A DNA stretch of 26,413 nt from a virus: the IMG/VR virus record IMGVR_UViG_3300042291_000717, positions 1 to 26,413 of that record; one strand, written 5' to 3'. The position numbers and the translations under genes are program-made. This document shows positions 1-23,542 of this stretch, one piece after another. A model generated the notes under the pieces. The model was not told the origin of the DNA. It did no database searches and saw only the letters and a list, made by a program, of their open reading frames with translations. Each line of letters opens with the position of its first letter. Position 1 is the first letter of the stretch.

Positions 1-793
1 CATAAGCGGCATTATTGTTTGTACAAAATGAACGTAATGAAACACCTTTATCATCAAATTTTCTATATAACTTAAAGTCATATGAAATATTAATTAGTTT
101 TTGAAAGTGATGTTGTGGTGCTTCAAATCTAACTCCAATTTGTACTGATTTAGGTTCATCTGGTAATTCATATTGATTAGCTAATTGTTGGGCAAAATCA
201 ATACCTGATTTACCTACAGCAAATATAAGTTCATCATAGTATTTATGTTTGGTTTCTTTAGCAGCTTCATTATTCCAATAATATGAAACTAAATTATTTT
301 CGAAATCAATTTGTTCTACTTTATGTTCCCAAATAAATTTTACACCTTTAGACACTAAATAATCATACCAATTTTTTCCTATTTCGTGTAAATAGTCTGT
401 ACCGATGTGATATACTCCAAATAAACGAAGACCAAAGTGTGGTTTGATGAAGTCTGGTTCTTCAGTGGGGTTTGAATACATAATTTTAGTTGGGTCCGGA
501 TGAAAGCGCTTCCAGGTTTCTATAACTTCATCCATTAATTGATATGCTTTTTCTTTTCCTGTGTACTTTGATAGTTGACCTCCAATCATATGGTGATATG
601 TTAGTTTACCATCAGAAAATCCTCCACTCCCTAACCAACCTGACATTACTTCTTCAGGTTTACGGTTGTATGGATTTTTACCCATATCAATTACTGTAAT
701 GAGTTTACCCGGATATCCACTATCAACTAATTTTGTTATTGCGTGAGCACCAGCTACACCACCACCAATTACTACAATTTTTTTATTTTTCAT
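1..793 (-). CDS. FAD-dependent dehydrogenase, COG2509-like (partial, C-terminus outside window)
   Basis: An open frame of 264 codons runs from the ATG at 793-791 off the left edge. Residues 6-16 form a Rossmann FAD-binding strand and turn (IVVIGGGVAGA, GxGxxG). Residues 55-65 read GSGGFSDGKLT, close to the GxGTFSDGKLT signature I know from COG2509 FAD-dependent dehydrogenases. Further on are an AVGKSG segment and IGVRFE, also like that family, then SFCTNN at 255-260, where the family usually has SFCMCPGG. The substrate of this family is not established, so only flavin-dependent redox chemistry is predicted, in the host cytoplasm. The gene follows a strong terminator and so probably has its own promoter. 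The 32 bases ahead of the start include TACATTTATAAT on the coding strand. It is unusual in a phage and may be an auxiliary metabolic gene. The family call is fairly firm; the role is open. Confidence 0.8.
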   Translation of the reverse strand, partial: MKNKKIVVIGGGVAGAHAITKLVDSGYPGKLITVIDMGKNPYNRKPEEVMSGWLGSGGFSDGKLTYHHMIGGQLSKYTGKEKAYQLMDEVIETWKRFHPDPTKIMYSNPTEEPDFIKPHFGLRLFGVYHIGTDYLHEIGKNWYDYLVSKGVKFIWEHKVEQIDFENNLVSYYWNNEAAKETKHKYYDELIFAVGKSGIDFAQQLANQYELPDEPKSVQIGVRFEAPQHHFQKLINISYDFKLYRKFDDKGVSLRSFCTNNNAAY

Positions 794-2964: not shown

Positions 2965-3450
2965 TTATTTTTGTTTAGCTCCTAGATAAGCAGCAACTGC
3001 CATATCTTGTTTTTTAGCTTTTGATTTACCTTTAAATTGTGGTGCTTTTGATTTTCTAAAATCATCAACATATGCGCCAGCGCCCATAGATGGTTTTAAT
3101 TTTTCATCTAATTCTTCTGGTTTATCTTCAGATTTTTTATTTTTCTTAGCTCCTTTAGCAGGTTTAGTCATTTGCTTTTTAGCCTCTTCAAATTCTTTTT
3201 TCTTATCTTGAAGTTCTTTAATACTAGCTTCCATATCATCCATCATATCACTGATGATTTCTGGTTCTACATAATATTTTAATCCAGCCATATCTAATAA
3301 AGCAGATTTTACTCTCATAGCATCTTGAATATCTTCTTCAACTTTGTTGATTTTAGCTTCTACTGCTGCTATATCGCCAGCTTCATCGATCATTCTAATA
3401 CGCTCTTGAACGGCTTCTTTGATTAATTGTTTTAATTGACTTACTTTCAT
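2965..3450 (-). CDS. Coiled-coil protein with capsid-targeting-like N-terminus; possible internal head or scaffold protein
   Basis: A 161-aa, Lys/Glu-rich protein. Residues 1-13 (MKVSQLKQLIKEA) place I10-K11-E12 before A13, much like the T4 internal-protein targeting peptide MKTYQEFIAE-A. Residues 23-95 are predicted coiled coil, 95-115 a Lys-rich linker, and 120-161 a segment (MGAGAYVDDFRKS, PQFKGKSKAKKQDMAVAAYL) that I recall from marine phage proteins next to prohead genes. No enzyme motif is present. It starts 24 bases after the 894-aa gene, with a copy of the gap motif between, and is coupled to the 174-aa gene. A scaffold or packaged internal protein is the best guess, not proven. Confidence 0.75.
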   Translation of the reverse strand: MKVSQLKQLIKEAVQERIRMIDEAGDIAAVEAKINKVEEDIQDAMRVKSALLDMAGLKYYVEPEIISDMMDDMEASIKELQDKKKEFEEAKKQMTKPAKGAKKNKKSEDKPEELDEKLKPSMGAGAYVDDFRKSKAPQFKGKSKAKKQDMAVAAYLGAKQK

Positions 3451-3467: not shown

Positions 3468-3477
3468 ATAAATATTA
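3468..3477. promoter_or_regulatory. Recurrent gap motif, copy 3
   Basis: ATAAATATTA on the plus strand; the full TATAAATA starts at 3467. On the coding strand its TAA is the stop codon of the 894-aa gene, and it lies 17 bases upstream of the 161-aa gene. Confidence 0.4.
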
Positions 3478-6159
3478 ATTTATTTTGGTTTCTTCAATGT
3501 GTTTTTCTAGTAATGATTTAATTTCACCAACGTGTTTAGGATTGCGCCCTAAATAATCATTTACTATATATTGATGCATTTCTACTAAATTTCGTTGTTG
3601 TAACGCGGCCATTAACTCAGCTGGTGAGTTTACTGCATATGAAGCATTAGTTGTTATAATGTAGTGGCTATTGCCTGGTTGTGATACGATTGAACCTATC
3701 ATTGCTCCATTAGCTAAACGAATAATATATAATGCACTTTCTCTATTATAGTTGTTAGTTACTAATACTACACCAGTTACTCGTCCGTTTCCACCTAATA
3801 TATTATTACGACGTGTTGCTCCAGCGTTTTGATTTACTGCTACTGCTCTTTGAGCACCAACGAATTTTCTTCTAATAGTTGCTGGTAGTGAATTAAATCC
3901 ACCTGTTAATCCTGCTGCTACTAAAGCTGCATCTAAAGCATCATTATTTTCTCCTCCAGCTGCTGCTACAACTGGTACAGGTACTGCTGCTGCTTGTCCT
4001 GCTACTCCTGCTGGTCTACCTCTTCTAGGTGCGCCTGCTGCTGGTGCTGCTGGTGCTGCTGCTGGTGCTTGTTCATCACCTGCTGCTGGTGCTGCTGGAC
4101 CTGCTAATGCTGCTGCTGTTCTTGCTGGTAATCTAGCTGCTAATAATTTACCTGTGTTTGGTGATACTTTATAACTAGCTGATGGGTCTTCTCTATTGAT
4201 AATGTAAACTACACCATCTCTAACAGCCATTATTAAATTAGAACCCTCAGTACGAGGTAAATCCATCTGTGCAAATGCTATTTTTGAATCATAATTACTA
4301 GTTGTATATCTATCAAATAAAGTTAAAATATCATTATCACTAACAGTTATATTGTATTTTCTTAAAAATTCAGGATATGCTGTTGGTACAGGAAGTGTTG
4401 AAAATGATACATATCTCCATGAAGTACCCTCGTTAGCTGTAGGTGCGTACCCTCTAAATCTAGTTAAAGCTGGGTTAGAATCAAAAGCAAGTATTACATC
4501 TTCACCATTAAATTGAGTAATATATATTCCTTTATTAGCATTAATTAATACATTAGCTGGAGCTTCTTTTAATATATCTATTAATTCTTCTTTATTTAAT
4601 GGAGATGTATAATTTGTTATATCATCATAATTTAATATAACATCTGCTGTATTTTTAATTATATTAGGATTAGCTTGTGCTATTGTAAGAAATGCTTCTC
4701 TAATACCTGGTGCGCTAAGTTTAACTGATTTTATAGTGTTATCTGATAGATCATATGCTTTTATTGTGTTGTTTGCTGTATCAAATAAAATATCTTTACC
4801 ATCAACATTAATTACTTGTTTAGCCCCATCTGTAGATTCTTTAGCATTATTGACAATATCTTTTATTGGTTTAGAATCTAAATTAAAATCAGTAATTGTT
4901 TTTATTAATTTATCAAATGGAATTTCATCTATATTTGGATAACCAAATAGATATTTTTGAGTTCTAGTATTTAATTTAATATTATCATAAACATCATCTT
5001 CAGTAATTAAATCAACTCTAATATTTTTCTTATCATGTCTAATATTAACTATAGTACTACCATCAGAGGTAACATAAGCATTAAAATATTCATCAAATGG
5101 TATTCTATTAGCTTGAATTAATTTTTTACTAACATCAAAAGGAATTTCTTTATTTATAATATCCTTTCCCTTTACTGCTATCTCCTGACCTGGACGATTA
5201 ACAAATGATATAATTGATTTTTGATTGTTAGGTTTTAAATATTCAAGATTATTTAATAATTTATCAAATCCTATAATCCATGGATTTGTACTAATCCAGT
5301 CTGCTATTCTATCATATTTAGGTAATACTTTTTGAATAAATTTTTCATAAGATAAATCCTTAAATAAGTCTCTATCTCTTAAACGAACCATTATGTACTG
5401 TTTTTTTTCTTCAAAATCTAAATCAGTAGCCCATTCATTAAATTTAAGTCCATCTTTATATTTTCGTTCTTTACCTTCGGCACTTGCCTCTACAGGAATA
5501 TATTTTAATATATTTTGTAAATTAGGAATATCAGCTAAATATGGTATGTTTCTAACTAGCTGAGAAAAACTCATTGGTTCAGAGTTATTTGGAACATTAC
5601 TTCTACCAGTCCATACGTATCTTTGATCTTCTGGTTTATTTCTTACTTGAATAGCAACAAAACTAAGAGTATCTGAACTTGGTAAATTATTATTTTTAAC
5701 TAAATAAAAAACAGGATATCCTGAACTAGAGCTATACCTGTAAGATCCATATGATCCTTTAGTAATACACCATCTTTCTCCTTTACCAAAAGTAACACAC
5801 TTACCTTCTACATCACCACTATATATTACTATACTATTATCATCACTGTTGTATACTACATCAGGTGTAATTTCAATGTCTTTTGGTTTAGTGTCTGATG
5901 TTGTTCTAACTAAACGAAGTAATTGGTTTACTGAGTATTTAGCTAAGTCTTTCTCAGCTACATTTGGATTATTTTTAAATTTAGTATCAAAAATTTCAAT
6001 TGCTGCTTTTAATTCATCATCTGAAATTGTTAGGTTTAAATCTTCAGCTTCATCTTTAAATTGCTTTATAAATACTTGCATTTGCTTAGCACTAAGTGCT
6101 TCAGTTAATCCTCCCCAATTGTGCACTACATGCAATATAAATTTATTTATAGATTTCAT
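3475..6159 (-). CDS. Large putative internal virion protein with WCI motif and Ala/Pro-rich linker
   Basis: An 894-aa protein. Its start at 6159 overlaps the stop of the upstream membrane protein (TAATG). Residues 1-21 hold an N-terminal helix and a GGLTE-A site (E20/A21), a possible prohead-protease site. Residues 118-154 contain GKGERWCITK, then SYGSYRY and YPVFYLV. This WCI...Y...FYLV pattern occurs in other large phage proteins of unknown role. Residues about 230-640 are Lys/Asp/Asn-rich with no family I recognise. Residues about 674-738 are a low-complexity Ala/Pro/Gly linker encoded by GC-rich GCT/GCA runs, unlike the AT-rich surroundings, and include RRGRPAG, which resembles an AT-hook. 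Residues 740-894 form a distinct C-terminal domain (ATRRNNILGG, RVTGVVLV, YIIRLANGAMIG, YIITTNASY). A packaged or injected DNA-binding protein is plausible but unproven. Confidence 0.7.
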   Translation of the reverse strand: MKSINKFILHVVHNWGGLTEALSAKQMQVFIKQFKDEAEDLNLTISDDELKAAIEIFDTKFKNNPNVAEKDLAKYSVNQLLRLVRTTSDTKPKDIEITPDVVYNSDDNSIVIYSGDVEGKCVTFGKGERWCITKGSYGSYRYSSSSGYPVFYLVKNNNLPSSDTLSFVAIQVRNKPEDQRYVWTGRSNVPNNSEPMSFSQLVRNIPYLADIPNLQNILKYIPVEASAEGKERKYKDGLKFNEWATDLDFEEKKQYIMVRLRDRDLFKDLSYEKFIQKVLPKYDRIADWISTNPWIIGFDKLLNNLEYLKPNNQKSIISFVNRPGQEIAVKGKDIINKEIPFDVSKKLIQANRIPFDEYFNAYVTSDGSTIVNIRHDKKNIRVDLITEDDVYDNIKLNTRTQKYLFGYPNIDEIPFDKLIKTITDFNLDSKPIKDIVNNAKESTDGAKQVINVDGKDILFDTANNTIKAYDLSDNTIKSVKLSAPGIREAFLTIAQANPNIIKNTADVILNYDDITNYTSPLNKEELIDILKEAPANVLINANKGIYITQFNGEDVILAFDSNPALTRFRGYAPTANEGTSWRYVSFSTLPVPTAYPEFLRKYNITVSDNDILTLFDRYTTSNYDSKIAFAQMDLPRTEGSNLIMAVRDGVVYIINREDPSASYKVSPNTGKLLAARLPARTAAALAGPAAPAAGDEQAPAAAPAAPAAGAPRRGRPAGVAGQAAAVPVPVVAAAGGENNDALDAALVAAGLTGGFNSLPATIRRKFVGAQRAVAVNQNAGATRRNNILGGNGRVTGVVLVTNNYNRESALYIIRLANGAMIGSIVSQPGNSHYIITTNASYAVNSPAELMAALQQRNLVEMHQYIVNDYLGRNPKHVGEIKSLLEKHIEETKIN

Positions 6160-23185: not shown

Positions 23186-23542
23186 TTATCCTAAGTTTTT
23201 TAGTCCTGCTTTGTCTTGTGCACTCATATTAGCTGCTGCATCCATAATGAAATCCGTAAATGGATTACCATTAGTTGGGTCTACTTTCAATTCAGCACCA
23301 TTATACGATGATACAGCAGGAGTATTAAATCCAAATGCTGCTCCCATTTTTGATCTTAATTGAGCACGAACATCTAACGTTTCATGTATATCGTTAGTAG
23401 TAAAGCTAACTGTTTTAGTTTCTTGTAATGATGATGGTTTACTAACCGCCTGGGGTGAGTCACTTAAAATAGCTAATAGCTCTTCGCGTACTGCTTCAGC
23501 TACTGCTTCTTTAATCAAACCTTTAAATGCTTTTACATTCAT
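23186..23542 (-). CDS. Small protein with capsid-targeting-like N-terminus, function unknown
   Basis: A 118-aa protein. Residues 1-22 (MNVKAFKGLIKEAVAEAVRE) strongly resemble the start of the 161-aa protein at 2965-3450: I10-K11-E12 then A13 at identical positions. Residues 60-118 contain a GAAFGFNTPAVSSYNGAELKVDPTNGNPFTDFIMDAAANM segment that I do not recognise. It is wedged between the hydrophobic coiled protein and gp25, so a baseplate or virion role is also possible. The shared N-terminus with proteins encoded 20 kb away is the notable feature. A gap motif lies four bases ahead of the start. Confidence 0.7.
   Translation of the reverse strand: MNVKAFKGLIKEAVAEAVREELLAILSDSPQAVSKPSSLQETKTVSFTTNDIHETLDVRAQLRSKMGAAFGFNTPAVSSYNGAELKVDPTNGNPFTDFIMDAAANMSAQDKAGLKNLG

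Follow-up and report, generated by a model that had tools for sequence, protein, structure and literature searches.

The window, by which we mean the entire stretch of viral DNA analysed here (26,413 bases, the whole of one IMG/VR record), carries at its left edge an open reading frame on the minus strand that starts with ATG at position 793, spans 264 codons, and runs open to the contig edge at position 2, the gene's own C-terminus lying beyond the contig end. It represents the N-terminal part of a COG2509-like FAD-dependent oxidoreductase (2–793), an assignment that draws on motifs, relatives, family profile, fold, tree, and dN/dS. Upstream of it, on the same strand, lies a conserved leader RNA of ∼90 nt (826–914), recognised by alignment, covariation, and information profile, which is the main subject of this article.

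Over its whole length, the best family match of the frame is phrog_12409, “dehydrogenase” (E 2.5e-14); Pfam recognises only the generic Rossmann part (Pyr_redox_2). A scan of viral contigs confirmed at least 597 relatives among 600 candidate stretches, and the best 80 of these are 70–88% identical to the window frame. The enzyme is widespread, with copies in hundreds of environmental phage contigs. Please note that our sequence scans are samples, and locus counts derived from them are lower bounds. Against five relatives the dN/dS is 0.07–0.17, which indicates that the protein is under purifying selection. Judged by these relatives and ratios, which rule out a chance frame, this is a real gene. 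Complete relatives are ∼430–460 amino acids long and continue past the position of the window's edge without a frameshift. The first-pass annotation had named such a frameshift, or membership in another flavoprotein family, as what would speak against its COG2509-like reading, and neither was seen in the relatives.

That reading relied on the motifs GGGVAGA and GSGGFSDGKLT and an SFC segment, all present in the translation, the last as SFCTNNN, and it agrees with both profile and fold. A profile of 39 phage proteins has VP0956 (3nlc), a COG2509 protein, as its top match in the PDB (E 1.6e-07), and a full-length relative that is 84% identical to the window, modelled by AlphaFold (pLDDT 90.6), aligns with 3nlc, its best solved relative, over 377 residues (Z 25.8), ahead of HI0933-type flavoproteins (Z 20.2). 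A predicted viral structure with a TM of 0.93 already bears the label “COG2509 Uncharacterized FAD-dependent dehydrogenases,” with a Campylobacter phage protein next. COG2509-like phage proteins are already known, being annotated in Campylobacter Fletchervirus and in BFVD.

The family resemblance has limits. The phage protein and the COG2509 proteins (VP0956, 3nlc; PF21688) have a common fold over most of the chain, together with (S/T)FC, GAG.(F/W)SDGK, and an H-G-T segment. Canonical bacterial members, however, are ∼520–550 amino acids long and have an N-terminal extension (∼85–100 residues), SFCMCPGG, and GEGAGYAGG, whereas the phage proteins have neither the extension nor the CPGG, and carry SFCTNNN and GDALSARG in place of the two canonical motifs. 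The first-pass annotation had spotted the SFCTNNN replacement in the window, and it recurs in the full-length phage proteins (∼151 of 165); among these 165, GDALSARG is kept in 161, and the Rossmann GxGVxG motif for FAD binding, whose retention had been put forward as a check, in ∼160. Conservation across the phage clade and the low dN/dS led us to reject the idea that SFCTNNN is a lesion. PF21688 (FAD-depend_C) was not among the families matched by 24 phage proteins; it was matched in 77/148 Bacteroidota genomes and 7/14 control genomes.

In a maximum-likelihood tree, another of the checks proposed, the phage copies form one clade (support 100/99) on a long branch apart from canonical COG2509, with the Fletchervirus protein as its sister (100/97); this tree joins long branches, and it is uncertain in which order these two, the short bacterial clade, and canonical COG2509 diverged. 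Because the canonical SFCMCPGG and GEGAGYAGG motifs are missing, we file the phage protein as a separate, COG2509-like subfamily and withhold strict COG2509 membership. The Fletchervirus “NAD(FAD)-utilizing dehydrogenase” (NCTC12673 gp008) likewise belongs to a T4-like phage and is 28% identical, but its neighbours are a dUTPase and a clamp loader. Short bacterial FAD-binding proteins (Pusillibacter WP_213543876.1) and their gut-phage relatives have R(T/S)FC.N and GD...(T/A)RG in common with the phage clade and also have no N-terminal extension, although the gut-phage copies are only 26–33% identical and sit on long branches. COG2509 proteins occur widely across bacteria and archaea, and it has, to our knowledge, not been established what reaction they catalyse. 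The phage enzyme, we predict, most likely uses its flavin to oxidise or reduce a small molecule.

It is worthwhile looking at the neighbours. The gene order in relatives, all on a single strand, runs oxidoreductase, small protein, P-loop kinase, a few small genes, terminase large subunit, and portal. This place beside the packaging genes is conserved in dozens of contigs, which makes the oxidoreductase gene a lasting part of the phage lineage. The kinase is the most frequent downstream gene, found within six genes of the oxidoreductase 65 times over 84 copies. The first-pass annotation had taken the gene for metabolic or defence-related cargo of no evident use to the phage, separated from the virion genes by a strong terminator. 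We reject the cargo reading, because the position is conserved and a conserved element upstream belongs to the gene. Nor is the gene set off from virion genes, since terminase and portal are encoded on the same strand further downstream in relatives. The terminator itself is real (−23 kcal/mol, z = −4.1), but it forms the 3′ part of the gene's own leader.

The lineage is one of abundant T4-like aquatic phages. Its closest terminase from an isolate, 59% identical, is that of the Flavobacterium phage Immutovirus; at the terminase region of Immutovirus or of Microcystis phage Mel-JY01 no oxidoreductase is annotated, and neither phage appears among the protein matches. The isolate collection yielded no cultured member of this lineage. 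A scan of bacterial genome contigs found the oxidoreductase in three contigs of metagenome-assembled genomes (MAGs) only (loci L084–L086), of which two are labelled Flavobacteriaceae and Flavobacteriales; L084 has the phage gene order and the RNA element, and is probably a misbinned phage or prophage-like contig. Given the Immutovirus match and the two labelled MAG contigs, the hosts probably belong to the class Flavobacteriia.

Several features of these loci deserve mention in their own right. GIY-YIG homing endonuclease genes stand directly before the oxidoreductase in L002, L004, L007, L011, L016, L175, and L189, and some of them separate the gene from its RNA element. Between oxidoreductase and kinase, L009 and L019 (and also L124, L169, and L195) have a conserved inserted block that encodes an AAA_5-type AAA ATPase together with a VWA/metallopeptidase-like protein of DUF2201. 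In L144, L148, L150, and L152 (L170 partly), an insertion of ∼0.5–1.2 kb with small ORFs splits the oxidoreductase gene near codons 172–175; no Rfam intron family matched these split-gene loci at the gathering threshold, and the insertion is possibly an undescribed intron or homing element. Within the window, four otherwise unrelated proteins (1156–1596, 2438–2962, 2965–3450, and 23186–23542, minus strand) share an MKxxxLKxLIKEAVxE-type leader that is common in relatives too; by its resemblance to the T4 capsid-targeting leader, it may mark proteins packed into the head. An 894-residue protein (3475–6159, minus strand) lies among these small leader-type proteins; it has no Pfam match, and its C-terminal third is rich in Ala and Pro.

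We now turn to the RNA. Alignment of relatives revealed a conserved block in the intergenic region, with a plan visible from 55 distinct copies: 5′ AACAUAYAGACN-G-AUUCAUAGC-C-NGUC, an A-rich linker of ∼15–30 nt, xyz-A-GCUGUGGC-z′y′x′, a loop, xyzGCCAC, and a U run. In the window (all positions on the minus strand) the 5′ strand AACAUAYA occupies 906–914, just before P1; in the information profile of 145 distinct elements, conservation ends sharply upstream of it. Hairpin P1 (887–905) pairs GACAG with CUGUC around the 9-nt loop AUUCAUAGC (892–900). After the A-rich linker comes hairpin P2 (855–871), the putative antiterminator, composed of UGGA, a bulged A, GC, the loop UGUG, GC, and UCCG. The strand CAUAGC in the P1 loop (892–897) is complementary to GCUGUG in the P2 loop region (861–866). 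The terminator hairpin P3 (835–863), recognised by folding energy and arm pairing as GUGGCUCCGAUC-GAAA-GAUCUGGAGCCAC, reuses the 3′ arm of P2 and is followed by a run of eight U (826–833); among the 110 elements that have P3, 108 show at least five U in the eight positions after it. The start codon of the oxidoreductase lies 33 nt beyond the U tract. An R1 covariance model matches the window at 854–907 with 67.2 bits, the window itself being part of the training alignment.

The structure is borne out by covariation. In 59 sequences, 94.4% of cells are paired, with a score of 0.396 against 0.119 for shuffled and at most 0.08 for slid controls. For 46 distinct, more divergent sequences, the score of P1 and P2 rises to 0.639 (shuffled 0.197; slid 0.04–0.15), and that of the structure including the loop–loop pairing is 0.490 (shuffled 0.156). 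All five pairs of P1 show double-sided changes, with 99.6% of cells paired, and at the outer three pairs of P2 both sides change in 17–22 of the 46 sequences. Exact Watson–Crick complementarity of the P2 triplet is seen in 80% of 151 distinct elements. On this comparative evidence, P1 and P2 are established as real RNA helices.

The 3′ arm of P2 leads, as it were, a double life. It is fully paired downstream in 73.5% of its own elements, against 9.4% when an arm is combined with the downstream region of an element with a different triplet (151 elements); about a quarter of the elements have no perfect 5-nt P3 match. Since the arm used in P2 is also used by the terminator, pairing logic dictates that P2 and P3 are mutually exclusive. 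Coordinated change in three segments, two of which form a terminator, is the hallmark of an antiterminator/terminator switch.

Contact between the P1 and P2 loops, as a kissing loop or an H-type pseudoknot, is supported more weakly. The CAUAGC/GCUGUG pairing is intact in 97.5% of cells, and its outermost pair reads C-G in 42 of the 46 sequences and U-A in the remaining 4, with no other combination; the inner positions hardly vary, and the case for this pairing therefore comes mainly from one covarying pair. In a DNA scan for loop variants, the matches listed before the gene comprised three U..A, no C..A, and no U..G forms; the U..A form occurred in three contigs (one of them the known L010), with protein identities of 45–78%. 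These scans were small samples of 120 rows with short patterns whose matches are mostly chance, and they serve as supporting evidence only.

How tightly is the element linked to the gene? When viral contigs were scanned with the RNA pattern only, at least 119 loci were readable, and the oxidoreductase lay downstream on the same strand in 116; among the matches listed, 93 were within 150 nt and 22 within 800 nt. At two of the three loci without the gene, the contig ends 17 and 111 nt from the element, which leaves 116 of 117 testable sites, and the remaining exception, L176, scores at chance level. In the reverse direction, loci selected by protein have the element in 76 of 80; the contig of L007 ends just upstream of the gene, and L011, L019, and L078 keep the gene with no detectable element. 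The covariance model gave one confident match in each of eight of nine large phage contigs and none in the ninth, that of L019. The element is kept at protein identities down to 41–45%. When ∼2.7 Mb of further viral DNA was searched, the model matched below E 0.01 at just two elements, both preceding the oxidoreductase. Among 247 Bacteroidota genomes, searched with stricter filters that may lose weak matches, one had the element, a MAG with a phage-like contig. Covariance searches found none in Fletchervirus, Immutovirus, or Mel-JY01, and the four gut-phage loci and the Pusillibacter locus searched also have none. The element thus appears to be confined to phages.

What is expected of a riboswitch at the level of sequence is found here: a covarying structured leader, a mutually exclusive antiterminator and terminator, and association with a gene. 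We consider it likely that a cis-acting RNA switch, either a default-off, ligand-on transcriptional riboswitch or an attenuator, stands directly upstream of the phage FAD-dependent oxidoreductase, and we regard it as a candidate class specific to this enzyme. During transcription of the leader, P1 and P2 would be the first to fold. When no signal is present, the more stable P3 would displace P2, and transcription would stop before the gene. A small molecule or factor that stabilises the complex of the P1 and P2 loops would let P2 survive and so block P3, whereupon transcription would run on into the oxidoreductase gene and probably also into the downstream kinase and packaging genes. The default-off direction is our inference from folding energies: the leader with P3 (−27.3 kcal/mol) is more stable than the leader through P2 (−11.9 kcal/mol), and termination should be the end state unless P2 is held. 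No conserved promoter was found upstream of the leader, which could therefore also be read through from upstream genes.

A stronger version of this proposal, in which a phage-only riboswitch class senses a metabolite through the kissing-loop complex and turns on a dedicated flavoenzyme for that metabolite or a derivative in these aquatic phages, is one that we hold tentatively, with the chances slightly below even. That the substrate of the enzyme is also the signal for the leader is a guess. The neighbours hint at no ligand. Our initial candidate, an NAD+-linked riboswitch followed by a NadR kinase, was weakened by the kinase itself: this AAA_28 protein is nearest by profile to deoxyguanosine/deoxynucleoside kinases (E 0.0005) and also matches phrog_2107 (“thymidylate kinase”), with only a weak NMN-adenylyltransferase match.

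The same anatomy would serve an attenuator under protein control, whether by the oxidoreductase itself or by another phage or host RNA-binding protein, with no small molecule involved; autoregulation would fit an element that is single-copy and tied strictly to one gene. Near-invariant 9-nt loops and a compact fold are, however, equally typical of metabolite aptamers, and we saw no RNA-binding domain in the phage oxidoreductase; we rate protein control as the less likely reading, though a serious rival.

Two further readings seem to us improbable, and to much the same degree. A length of ∼90 nt, a strong terminator, and a sharp 5′ boundary of conservation would suit a short trans-acting phage RNA that ends at the terminator and lies beside the gene through conserved synteny only. 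An antiterminator that changes in step with the terminator would be of no use to such an RNA, and in some contigs a homing endonuclease or other small genes have come to lie between element and gene, yet the pair persists. Alternatively, the element, whose two hairpins recall put RNA, could be a site for processive antitermination or late-operon control of the whole packaging operon, with no specificity for the oxidoreductase; terminase and portal do lie downstream. Yet Immutovirus and Mel-JY01, which have no oxidoreductase before the terminase, are without the element, we found no phage with the element before packaging genes that lacked the oxidoreductase, and in L009 the element stays with the oxidoreductase despite ∼6 kb of genes inserted before the kinase. 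If the element were simply the intrinsic terminator that closes the upstream operon, conserved through recent common descent, this would explain the strong hairpin, but such a terminator has no use for a conserved P1 and linker, and the reading is in practice refuted by compensatory changes that far exceed those in shuffled and slid controls and extend to protein identities of 41–45%, leaving it a very slim chance indeed.

The candidate switch resembles several known systems. Small pseudoknot or loop–loop riboswitches (NAD+-II/pnuC motif, preQ1-I, and SAM-II) and antiterminator/terminator switches likewise combine a small aptamer-like fold with long-range loop pairing and one gene type, but the consensus of the leader differs, it has no Rfam match, and it is phage-borne. 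In Rfam release 15, no family matched the leader region at E up to 1 and none matched the window at gathering; other copies of the element gave only far sub-threshold matches. No description of the leader RNA was found in a literature search with thin coverage of subscription papers. It is the leader RNA, and not the protein, that is new. NAD+-II, too, was put forward as a riboswitch on the grounds of structure and of linkage to a single kind of gene, and ligand tests came afterwards (PMC7749635). In phages, riboswitches are described as rare, and the known example is the glutamine class of marine phages such as Melnitz (PMC9004378); it too is encoded by aquatic phages, but that class is known and also occurs in bacteria, whereas the leader element appears phage-only.

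What we describe, then, is a compact, strongly covarying candidate switch without an Rfam family, linked nearly one-to-one with a flavoenzyme. The phage riboswitches of which we know all belong to classes that also occur in bacteria. The identity of the ligand would point to the chemistry of the enzyme, and with it to what these aquatic phages change in their hosts.
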